Of a stretch of DNA of 64,000 bases, positions 40,282 to 43,243 are shown piece after piece; the stretch's first letter is position 1; each line of letters starts with the position of its first letter. The translations under genes were made by a program, and so were the position numbers. Location of the stretch: contig NZ_QAJP01000005.1 in NCBI RefSeq assembly GCF_003852535.1, positions 330,403 to 394,402 on the forward strand, given 5' to 3'. The notes beneath the pieces are model-generated. The model ran no database searches, was not told the origin of the DNA, and was given only the letters and a program-made list of their open reading frames with translations. This DNA comes from Herminiimonas sp. KBW02 (GTDB lineage Bacteria; Pseudomonadota; Gammaproteobacteria; Burkholderiales; Burkholderiaceae_D).

Positions 40282-41475
40282 ATGCTAAGTTGGGATGAAG
40301 AAGTAGCTCCGGCAGCACCGGCGCCAGGCGCGCAGGCAGGATTGCAACCGGCTTTGCAGCAAGTGCGTGAAGCAGCCGCACAACGCGTGCAGGCACAACA
40401 GGAAGTGGCGCTGGATCCTGCGCTGGTAGCGAAAAACGCTGCTGCAGTCGATCCGACCCGCCGTATGGATGCCGCCGACAAGCGCGTCATCAACGGGCAA
40501 ACAGACGTTAACCAACTGGTTCCGTTTAAATACAAATGGGCATGGGATAAATACCTGGCTGGTTGCGCTAACCACTGGATGCCACAAGAGATCAATATGC
40601 AGCGTGATATTGAACTGTGGAAAAACCCGAACGGCCTGACCGACGACGAACGTCGTCTGGTGAAGCGTAATCTCGGCTTCTTCGTCACAGCCGATTCACT
40701 GGCTGCCAACAACATCGTGCTCGGTACCTACCGCCACATTACAGCACCGGAGTGCCGTCAGTATCTGCTGCGTCAGGCATTTGAAGAGGCCATCCACACC
40801 CACGCCTATCAATACATCGTTGAATCGCTGGGTCTGGATGAAGGCGAAATCTTCAATGCTTACAATGAAGTCGAGTCTATCCGCGACAAGGATCAGTTCC
40901 TGATCCCATTCATTGAAACGCTGACCGATCCTGAATTCAAAACCGGCACGACTGAGAATGATCAGAAATTGCTGCGCTCGCTCATCGTGTTTGCCTGTCT
41001 GATGGAAGGTCTTTTCTTCTATGTCGGCTTCGCACAAATTCTCGCGCTCGGTCGTCAAAACAAGATGATGGGTGCTGCAGAGCAGTATCAATACATCCTG
41101 CGTGATGAATCGATGCACTGCAACTTCGGCATCGATTTGATCAACACGATCAAGCTCGAAAATCCGCATTTGTGGACGCCGCAATTCCGCGAAGAGATTA
41201 AAACGTTGTTTTTACGCGCAGTAGAGTTGGAATATCGTTACGCAGAGGATACAATGCCGCGTGGAGTGCTTGGTCTGAACGCACCGATGTTCAAAGGCTA
41301 TTTGAGATTCATTGCAAATCGCCGCGCACAACAAATCGGTTTGGAACCGATGTTTGAACAAGAAGAAAATCCATTCCCATGGATGAGCGAAATGATCGAT
41401 CTGAAAAAAGAGCGCAACTTTTTTGAGACCCGAGTCATTGAGTACCAAACTGGTGGCGCGCTCAACTGGGAATAA
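40282..41475 (+). CDS. nrdB: Class Ia ribonucleotide reductase, beta subunit
   Basis: Carries the di-iron site and tyrosyl radical needed by NrdA. The 397-residue protein has an unusual N-terminal extension of about 60 residues rich in Ala and Gln before the conserved core. Metal-ligand segments are visible in [36 protein letters not shown] and [17 protein letters not shown]. The end TGGALNWE is in the region that docks to NrdA. The gap before it has a hairpin (GCGCTGAC at 40143-40150 with GTCAGCGC at 40172-40179) but no clear terminator, so it is probably co-transcribed with nrdA. Confidence 0.95.
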
Positions 41476-41507: not shown

Positions 41508-41637
41508 AAATAAGCAGCAAAAAGAGTAGTTCCAAAGATGCAGTCGCTCAAACAGTAATTGCAAAGACTGCGTAAAACAGGAAAGGCAACAACCAAATTT
41601 AATGAACAGTAGAAGACCTATACGATCTCATCTGCTC

Positions 41638-41678
41638 AAACCGCAACACTTGATTCAGTCAGGTGCGGCGGTTTTTTT
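41638..41678 (+). terminator. Intrinsic terminator of nrdB (first of two)
   Basis: AAACCGC (41638-41644) pairs with GCGGTTT (41668-41674); inside it CACTTGA (41647-41653) pairs with TCAGGTG (41659-41665) using one G-U. Seven Ts are at 41672-41678. Confidence 0.8.
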
Positions 41679-41715
41679 CTTTAAAAAAGGTTTGTTTTTT
41701 CTGAAACAGTATTCC

Positions 41716-41745
41716 AATGCCGGCGTATGCGCTGGCGTTTTTTTT
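41716..41745 (+). terminator. Intrinsic terminator (second of two)
   Basis: GCCGGCG (41719-41725) pairs with CGCTGGC (41730-41736) with one G-U, loop TATG, followed by eight Ts from 41738. Two terminators in a row suggest that strict isolation of nrdAB from the histone gene matters. Confidence 0.75.
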
Positions 41746-41905
41746 GGCTATAGCCGTAGCACAGCTACGTTAGACGCATAGCCAAGCAAGGCTGAAGTGC
41801 TGCATAAGTGAGGGGATGCAGCAGTTCAGCTGGAGCCGAATTCATTAGCGCAAGCAACAAACACGCTTGCGCCGATGAATAATTCGCCCAAACCATCGCG
41901 ATGGT
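41746..41905 (+). ncRNA. Row of strong hairpins upstream of the histone gene (structured leader or small RNA)
   Basis: Four elements: GGCTAT/ATAGCC enclosing CGTAG/CTACG (41746-41783); a long hairpin in which GCTGAA and TGCTGCAT (41791-41805) pair with ATGCAGCA and TTCAGC (41816-41830); ATTCAT plus GCGCAAGC (41840-41855) pairing with GCTTGCGC plus ATGAAT (41865-41880); and the palindrome ACCATCGCGATGGT (41892-41905). It is either the 5' leader of the histone mRNA or a separate RNA. Pairing is directly visible; being an RNA is inference. Confidence 0.45.
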
Positions 41906-41963
41906 GCGGGAGAGTTTCAAACCTAGAAGCTTGATTTTTTCCATCACGTGAAGGAGAAACAAA

Positions 41964-42608
41964 ATGGCAACAGCAGCAAAAAAACCAGCAGCTAAGAAAC
42001 CAGCTGCAAAGAAAGCAGCAGCTAAAAAACCAGTTGCAGCAAAAAAACCAGCCGCCAAAAAACCGGTAGCTAAAAAAGCAGCAGCTAAAAAGCCAGTGGC
42101 TAAAAAAGCAGCAGCTAAAAAGCCAGTAGCTAAAAAAGCGGTAGCTAAGAAAGTTGTCGCTAAAAAGCCAGTGGCTAAAAAAGCAGCAGCTAAAAAGCCA
42201 GTAGCTAAAAAAGCGGTAGCTAAAAAAGTCGTTGCTAAGAAAAAGCCAGTAGCTAAAAAAGCAGCAGCTAAAAAGCCAGCAGCCAAAAAAGCTGTAGCTA
42301 AAAAAGTTGTCGCTAAAAAGCCAGCAGCTAAAAAAGCAGCAGCCAAAAAGCCAGCAGCTAAGAAAGCCGTTGCTAAAAAAGCTGTAGCTAAAAAGCCAGC
42401 AGCAAAAAAAGCGGCCGCTAAAAAGCCAGCAGCTAAGCCAGCAGCCAAAAAAGCTGTAGCTAAAAAGCCAGTTGCTAAAAAACCTGCAGCTAAAAAAGCA
42501 GCGCCTAAAAAGCCTGCAGCGAAGCCAGCAGCAGTAGCAGCACCTGCAGTTAAGACGGTGTTGAATCCGGCAGCAGCATGGCCGTTTCCAACGGGCACAC
42601 GTCCGTAA
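41964..42608 (+). CDS. Histone H1-like Lys/Ala/Pro-rich protein
   Basis: A 214-residue, very basic protein built almost only of repeats such as AAKKPVAKK and [10 protein letters not shown], with a non-repetitive end ([12 protein letters not shown]). It has no folded domain. It resembles the bacterial histone H1-like proteins of Bordetella (BpH1) and others that bind DNA without sequence preference and compact the nucleoid. Codon use is AAA- and GCT/GCA-rich, unlike its GC-rich neighbours, owing to the repeats. GAAGGAGAAACAAA precedes the ATG. A phase break at KKKP near residue 93 suggests past expansion or slippage. Confidence 0.9.
41967..42550 (+). repeat. Long low-complexity coding repeat (histone gene)
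   Basis: About 580 bases of near-repeats of the GCTAAAAAGCCAGTAGC kind and variants, encoding [10 protein letters not shown] units. Long direct repeats like this can recombine and change length. Reads shorter than the block would not place uniquely. Confidence 0.9.
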
Positions 42609-42652
42609 ATCCAGGTTCGCCTGGATGCGCCTGATTAAATTCAGGCACAATC

Positions 42653-42689
42653 CCGCTGTGTGGCTTTTGTCGCACAGCGGTTTTTTTTT
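42653..42689 (+). terminator. Intrinsic terminator after the histone gene
   Basis: An 8-bp perfect stem, CCGCTGTG (42653-42660) with CACAGCGG (42673-42680), 12-base loop, followed by nine Ts. It ends 11 bases before the yggT start codon, and the yggT ribosome-binding site AAGGAG comes directly after it. Confidence 0.9.
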
Positions 42690-42700
42690 AAGGAGCTTCC

Positions 42701-43243
42701 GTGCTGGATAGTGTATTTACGCTGATTATTGATACGGTCGCCATCGTGCTGGCCGGTGCCTTGCTGCTCAGATTCTGGATGCAGGCTGTGCGCGTGCGTC
42801 CACCGATGGAGCTGGCACAATTTACCTATCAACTGACCGACTGGCTGGTACGCCCGCTGCGCCGTGTATTACCGGGTGCTGGTGGTTACGACTGGGCCAG
42901 TGTGATTGCTGCCTTTCTGGTGGCATTGGCAGCGACGGCAGTTGATCTGTTGCTGCGTGGTGGTTTCAGTGCGCAAACGCTGCTGCTTTTGTCCTTGCTA
43001 CGCGTCGTGCAATGGGCCTTGTATGGCTTGATCGGCCTGATTCTGATCGAGGTGATATTTAGCTGGGTGAATCCGCGTGCGCCGCTGGCACCGTTTGTTC
43101 GTGCCTTGAATGATCCGCTGATGCGGCCGTTGCGCCGGGTGGTGCCCTTGATCGGCACGGTGGATTTATCGCCGCTGGTTGCGCTGATCCTGCTGCGCAT
43201 TGCGATTCAGCTGGTCACTACCGTGGTGGCAGCGCTGCTGTAA
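42701..43243 (+). CDS. yggT: YggT-family membrane protein
   Basis: A 180-residue inner-membrane protein with two YGGT repeats. The first is at about residues 5-90 (VFTLIIDTVAIVLAGALLLRF...RPLRRVLPGAGGYDW). The second is at 100-175 (LLSLLRVVQWALYGLIGLILIEVIFSWVNP...PLRRVVPLIGTVDLSP). Proteins of this family affect osmotic tolerance in E. coli; the mechanism is unknown. It starts with GTG 7 bases after AAGGAG. A terminator ends just before its ribosome-binding site. Confidence 0.9.
   Translation: MLDSVFTLIIDTVAIVLAGALLLRFWMQAVRVRPPMELAQFTYQLTDWLVRPLRRVLPGAGGYDWASVIAAFLVALAATAVDLLLRGGFSAQTLLLLSLLRVVQWALYGLIGLILIEVIFSWVNPRAPLAPFVRALNDPLMRPLRRVVPLIGTVDLSPLVALILLRIAIQLVTTVVAALL

Follow-up and report, generated by a model that had tools for sequence, protein, structure and literature searches.

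A conserved two-helix RNA precedes a histone H1-like gene in Burkholderiales and may act as its leader

The window, by which we mean the whole stretch of 64,000 nucleotides of Herminiimonas sp. KBW02 that was analysed, carries a gene for a histone H1-like protein downstream of nrdB. The gap between the two genes holds, in this order, T1, T2, P0, P1, P2, P3, a Shine-Dalgarno sequence and the ATG of the histone gene:

40282-41475, + strand: nrdB, ribonucleotide reductase small subunit, the usual upstream neighbour (protein-family match and synteny)
41638-41678, + strand: T1, first U-tailed hairpin after nrdB (sequence and fold; kept in a 24-locus alignment)
41716-41745, + strand: T2, second intrinsic terminator (terminator scan; kept in the 24-locus alignment)
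41746-41783, + strand: P0, hairpin of variable sequence (folds of near loci)
41791-41830, + strand: P1, hairpin (alignment A1)
41840-41880, + strand: P2, core helix AUUCAUUAGCGCAAGC / GCUUGCGCCGAUGAAU with a variable loop (55-sequence and 158-core comparisons)
41881-41916, + strand: P3, helix with base AAUUCGCCC / GGGAGAGUU and the palindrome 41892-41905 as its tip (55-sequence and 158-core comparisons)
41951-41956, + strand: AAGGAG, the Shine-Dalgarno sequence of the histone gene (conserved in aligned relatives)
41964-42608, + strand: histone H1-like protein of 214 amino acids, Lys/Ala-rich (Pfam PF07382 HC2, E 8.4e-43)

The histone H1-like protein also matches the NCBI family NF038053 (hist_H1_lk_Burk) with 123.4 bits at a cut-off of 80. 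T1 is absent from the list of a simple terminator scan, and no convincing promoter was found for the gap, the promoter scan giving one match that lies inside nrdB and does not rise above shuffles. Just before T1, the segment AATTTAATGAACAGTAGAAGACCNATACGATCTCATCTG (41596-41637) is strongly conserved in near relatives and a few other genera; together with T1 it could form a small RNA or a 3'UTR-derived RNA of nrdB. In 16 Burkholderia-group loci (L131-L238) a second conserved stretch, ACTTTGCGAACCCTTCAGTGGGATGGGCAAACTTCCCC, is found some 150 nt 5' of P1, in the interval from nrdB to the leader.

The original prediction, made from the letters of the window, described two tandem U-tailed hairpins or terminators followed by four structured elements, and both hairpins were found where it had placed them. 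Its coordinates for the long hairpins P1 and P2 are right, and hairpin P0, directly 3' of the second U-tract, is the fourth element. The palindrome ACCATCGCGATGGT is indeed present at 41892-41905; comparison of relatives makes it the tip of the longer helix P3 and not an element of its own. The gap had also been singled out for unusually strong pairing, and the folds agree. The whole gap (41638-41963), terminators included, folds with -131.7 kcal/mol and a z of -8.11 on the + strand and a z of -6.53 on the - strand. In a scan of the + strand (798 windows of 160 nt, 25 shuffles each) the segment from 41761 had the second lowest z of all, -5.65, and those from 41921, 41601 and 41681 were also among the lowest six. 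The lowest z belongs to the segment from 42561, which contains the histone gene's own terminator. This region 3' of the histone gene (42561-42720), with its hairpins and terminator, reaches a z of -6.03.

The core of the RNA is formed by P2 and P3. P3 begins at the base right after P2, and the two abutting helices may therefore stack coaxially. The outer six pairs of P2, AUUCAU/AUGAAU, are invariant in 158 distinct cores (a set without L123 and L126, which lack the sequence anchor) and, as they never vary, are uninformative on pairing there; some of the inner pairs covary. Pair 13-39 is A.C in 153 of the 158 cores and lies beside a U.G, which makes a conserved internal mismatch, and it is G-C in five sequences. 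The loop of P2 ranges from 4 to 59 nt across loci. In alignment A3 (55 distinct sequences, without L037 with its long insertion) 87.7% of the cells pair and 15 of the 30 pairs are changed on both sides, including 10 of the 14 in P3, whose five basal pairs are standard in all 55 sequences. The covariation score of A3 was 0.242, vs 0.047-0.085 with the partner slid. Alignment A1, with 26 of 29 aligned loci (L035-L037 left out), gave 90.6% paired cells and a score of 0.131 vs 0.028-0.055. A first automatic alignment, A2, contained antisense matches and was used for no count.

In a tree-based test on the 158 distinct cores, in which changes were placed on the tree under independence, the summed pairing was 18.62 against a null of 15.99 +- 0.63 (maximum of 300 nulls, 17.68), and a stricter per-pair test (APC-corrected G statistic, null simulated on the tree) gave no pair below E = 0.76; both nulls are rough, as the tree was built from the same short sequences. 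The top ten pairs of the stricter test comprised five predicted ones, the top pair among them, and five that were not predicted. Lack of covarying pairs in relatives had been named beforehand as half of the outcome that would speak against the RNA. Such pairs were found at the level of helices, whereas the stricter per-pair test called none significant. Folded singly, the window's own sequence gives the base of P3 a probability of 0.26, with P2 extended instead and the tip of P3 formed. In single folds of the other loci the P3 base has a mean of 0.19 in family f3 and 0.5-1.0 in most groups (f1 to f50 are family labels assigned by the search tool; f1 is taken as Oxalobacteraceae from its named contigs). 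Comparison across species favours P3 over the single-sequence alternative.

The same comparison places the RNA on the + strand, because G.U cells at conserved pairs would be mismatches on the other one. The ten core pairs that are most regular (numbers 14-18 and 47-51 of the core) hold 252 G.U cells and no A.C cell; when all 30 pairs are counted, the loose ones too, the totals are 546 G.U and 289 A.C, 153 of the latter being the one constant mismatch. This asymmetry, together with a P2 loop that varies from 4 to 59 nt, makes it very improbable that the region is conserved as a DNA-level element, e.g. an operator or binding site, for which its palindromic letters could otherwise speak.

Two further hairpins, P0 and P1, lie upstream of the core. 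P0 closes the folded segment in 13 of 17 near loci, the window's own included; it is not formed, or the segment is too short, in L020, L022, L024 and L065, and it is not general beyond near relatives. P1, helix 1 of A1, has 92.0% paired cells, with 4 of 15 pairs changed on both sides in 25 distinct sequences. Read by eye, the P1 hairpin keeps one sequence in most of the family and has another in f31 and f4; its position is taken by a terminator in f9 and in the small-genome f31 group, and it is absent in two f17 loci. On this comparison of loci, P2-P3 is the smallest common unit. P1-P2 could also be read as coding for a leader peptide, MQQFSWCRIH, with an ATG, TTG or GTG start in part of the family. 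This frame is intact in only 15 of 25 distinct testable sequences, the others having an internal stop, no start, or TGG at the stop, and we rejected it with a likelihood close to nil.

A genome collection was scanned with a DNA pattern built from the letters of P2 and the beginning of P3. It matched at least 120 loci; 119 of those listed have a K/A-rich open reading frame downstream according to a script, and the 120th listed (L242) has an H1-like start, its remainder being masked. The organisms named among the listed matches are Burkholderiales or betaproteobacteria and include Burkholderia, Paraburkholderia, Caballeronia, Pandoraea, Bordetella, Achromobacter, Herbaspirillum, Massilia and Undibacterium. 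Among the core-bearing loci, many of them repeats of one place, the script found a K/A-rich frame downstream in 236 of 240. Its exceptions are L078, L101 and L242, with the coding part masked, and L023, a chance match on the other strand where the true site precedes the histone gene. Within the histone gene the repeats vary in length and a C-terminal tail of 13 residues is widely conserved. The tail is dispensable for retention of the RNA: L124, L125 and L129 of the small-genome f31 group have the RNA and no tail.

The upstream neighbour is less constant. A crude motif search placed nrdB within 1.6 kb upstream in 138 of the 157 distinct loci with at least 1200 nt of upstream sequence; the median distance from the nrdB stop to P2 is 310 nt (149 distances). 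The remaining 19 loci have no nrdB motif within 1.6 kb (four have one further off) and keep both RNA and histone, and the RNA therefore follows the histone gene. The proposal that a structured RNA belongs to this gene is supported by covarying helices, by their constant position and by their retention where nrdB is not close upstream.

The frequent proximity of nrdB would also suit a processing or stability element, in which the RNA parts the nrdAB message from that of the histone through cleavage near P1/P2 by RNase III or E, P2-P3 protecting the new 5' end. Two f17 loci, in which the gap between nrdB and P2 is 29-30 nt and no terminator was seen, fit such a role, as does P1, which by eye varies in sequence or is replaced by a terminator as a cutting site might be. 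Against it stand the 19 loci that keep the RNA with no nrdB close upstream, the near-invariant P2 letters, which suggest recognition beyond stability, and the two U-tailed hairpins that part the genes in the window; we regard it as unlikely.

A separate trans-acting small RNA that stands before the histone gene by chance would agree with the strong + strand fold and with the upstream terminators that isolate the region. The terminator scan, however, lists no terminator after P3 in the window, and the position before the same gene is constant over several families while the neighbours change. The original prediction had left open the choice between such a small RNA and a leader of the histone mRNA; the small RNA is the less likely of the two and, taken by itself, distinctly improbable. 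An intrinsic terminator or attenuator at P3 was considered as well and is disfavoured, none being listed there by the scan of the window. P3 is followed by three or four U and then other bases in most of 56 loci, and by a longer U-run in f3.

Its own genome has a single copy of the full stretch; 13 further matches among those listed are 15-36 nt long. When 60 relatives were first compared, a block of some 175 nt upstream of the histone start proved conserved, and other genera of the family have it as well. R1, a covariance model of 26 sequences, matched 356 of 392 genomes sampled from the family (332 of the 346 good-quality ones) and 41 of 399 genomes of the order, 12 in the family and 29 outside it. 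Twenty-six of these 29 precede an H1-like gene (f3, f4, f9, f17, f19 and f31), with the contig ending inside the histone gene at some loci; the other three (E 0.0012-0.006) do not, and look like chance. R2, a model of the P2-P3 core from 55 sequences, matched 39 of 300 genomes of the order, 9 in the family and 30 outside. All but three of the latter lie before a histone gene (27 of 30); in G600 the first codons pointed to the gene, although the script had picked another frame. The three (G057, G451 and G573) are chance matches, and G573 carries its histone gene at another place, behind a leader of the f20 type (L322) that R2 did not detect.

Nothing convincing was found outside the order in a class sample of 274 genomes, where the one match is the window's own genome, or in a phylum sample of 200, where the four matches are three members of the order and G1079 (E 0.007, not before a histone gene). 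The filters used for the large samples were stricter and lose weak matches; the misses are therefore upper bounds. L130, L326, L327, L329, L335, L336, L338 and L342 are chance matches.

Histone genes of f49, a distant family, were found through the protein family, independently of the RNA, in 36 of 90 genomes. They have the arrangement (A/G)UUCA...UGAAU with a second helix directly after it. In 25 of 30 loci (L302 was wrongly anchored; L281, L282, L299 and L308 were not anchored) 90.6% of the cells are paired and 16 of 25 pairs are changed on both sides. The covariation score of 0.414 vs 0.081-0.105 with the partner slid marks the clearest compensatory changes of any set. Since UUCA, GAAU/GGAU and a few of the following letters are set by the anchors, pairs made of them are no evidence; the covarying pairs lie beyond the anchored letters. 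RNAalifold alone predicted 22 pairs in these helices. By eye, 13 of 17 f20 loci have this arrangement too (L315 and L323 are not clear, L324 and L325 have no readable upstream sequence), and one locus reached E 0.005 with R2. Place, helix order and the shared junction suggest that all these leaders, those of f20 and f49 included, are one RNA by descent. In f24, f26, f29, f39 and f50 the histone is present and no recognisable core was seen, so the gene can do without the RNA.

This distribution also bears on a small-molecule riboswitch as the controller of the histone gene. Riboswitches commonly serve several genes or loci of one pathway, although this does not strictly define them. Here a single full copy was found in the genome, and a single gene type at the true matches among the core-bearing loci read. 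The near-invariant letters where P2 meets P3, and the internal U.G/A.C mismatch in P2, would fit such a switch; no conserved expression platform or switching arm common to the families was found in predicted folds, and we think a riboswitch improbable.

No known family accounts for the RNA, as had been expected from the letters: Rfam 15 gave 0 matches at the gathering score for the whole window and 0 for 12 related loci, and permissive scans gave only matches below that score. Among the papers listed by literature searches, none describes the RNA in its title or at the start of its abstract, which does not establish its absence from print. We judge it to be a new family of a known kind, the structured cis leader. 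Leaders of this kind are familiar from the autogenous control of ribosomal protein operons, with one dedicated structured leader per gene, compact helices and few invariant letters. The likeness lies in the one-gene leader and the invariant letters; the product here is a repetitive polycation. Eukaryotic histone mRNAs also carry a dedicated hairpin, the 3' stem-loop, which differs in being at the 3' end, in its sequence and in its proteins, so that it is an analogy only. The Burkholderiales-1 motif (Weinberg 2010, PMC2864571), with the same order in its name, enters this judgement through its table entry alone, which has no Rfam number. The excerpts used of PMC4603805 describe other structured leaders in the order, the sucA RNA motif and an SAH riboswitch in Burkholderia; these serve other genes, and neither matches the region in the Rfam scans. 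In Chlamydia, according to the part of PMC4355289 drawn on here, a bacterial histone H1-like gene is controlled after transcription, at the start codon of hctA mRNA by the small RNA IhtA, which gives such control a precedent. IhtA acts in trans on hctA, whereas the present element lies in cis to an HC2 gene.

Helices that covary and keep a constant position before a single gene, as expected of a structured cis leader, were found here, with the per-pair test pointing the other way. We consider it probable, with moderate confidence, that the region acts as a cis-acting structured leader of the histone H1-like (HC2) mRNA and controls its translation or stability. In such a leader the near-invariant base of P2 (UUCA/UGAA in the families compared), beside the base of P3, would be the recognition site of a trans-acting factor, most likely an RNA-binding protein and possibly the histone itself. 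Binding or the folding state would set access to the Shine-Dalgarno sequence, about 35 nt downstream of P3, or alternatively the decay rate of the histone mRNA, and the supply of histone would follow growth. For this model we infer that the element is placed in the histone transcript, and with it where that transcript starts, the factor, its trigger, the direction of control, the regulation itself and the link to growth.

Bacterial H1-like proteins can be abundant and controlled by growth phase, and we found no account of how their level is set in this order. Excerpts of two reports illustrate both traits: Hsero_0382 ranks second in abundance among the proteins on PHB granules of Herbaspirillum seropedicae (PMC3783465), and expression of BpH1, the Bordetella homologue, occurs during exponential growth and is repressed in the stationary phase (PMC2848022), in keeping with the proposed link to growth. 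An element conserved over several families offers a concrete target for mutation and a covariance model that can be deposited, and an RNA of a single gene with near-invariant letters points to a recognition partner. A bolder and doubtful extension is that the element, lying between nrdAB and the histone gene in much of the order, is recognised by a dedicated protein and couples the supply of H1-type histone to growth or to the synthesis of DNA precursors, as an independent bacterial counterpart of eukaryotic histone-mRNA control.

Pairing downstream of the core was examined in predicted folds. The Shine-Dalgarno sequence is moderately paired, with a median unpaired value of 0.35; its partner is in most cases (142 of 175) the local spacer and not P2-P3, and its conserved occlusion was rejected as not general. 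Pairing of the linker before P2 with the start-codon region was likewise rejected as a general switch, the signal differing by family. It is clear in f4, where 14 of 15 loci pair at the tested position, with an A-U/U-A exchange in L081 and a broken pair in L182; moderate in f1 (mean z -2.1); weak in two f17 loci (-0.9); and absent in f3, f9, f31 and the small-genome f31 group. The "own coding" control of this test is invalid for f1, and in other groups pairing with the own coding sequence is often equal to, or stronger than, that with the start region. As a lead, the pairing of linker and AUG in f4, and partly in f1, may resemble in cis what IhtA is described as doing to hctA in trans in the cited part of PMC4355289.

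Two features surround the Shine-Dalgarno sequence itself. A U-run opposite AAGGAG (41935-41956) gives a predicted pairing that resembles a fourU thermometer. Just before the Shine-Dalgarno sequence, or within its start, lies an 8-base palindrome (41944-41951 and equivalents) whose letters differ by family, being TCACGTGA in f1, TTCATGAA in f3 and TTGATCAA in f49.
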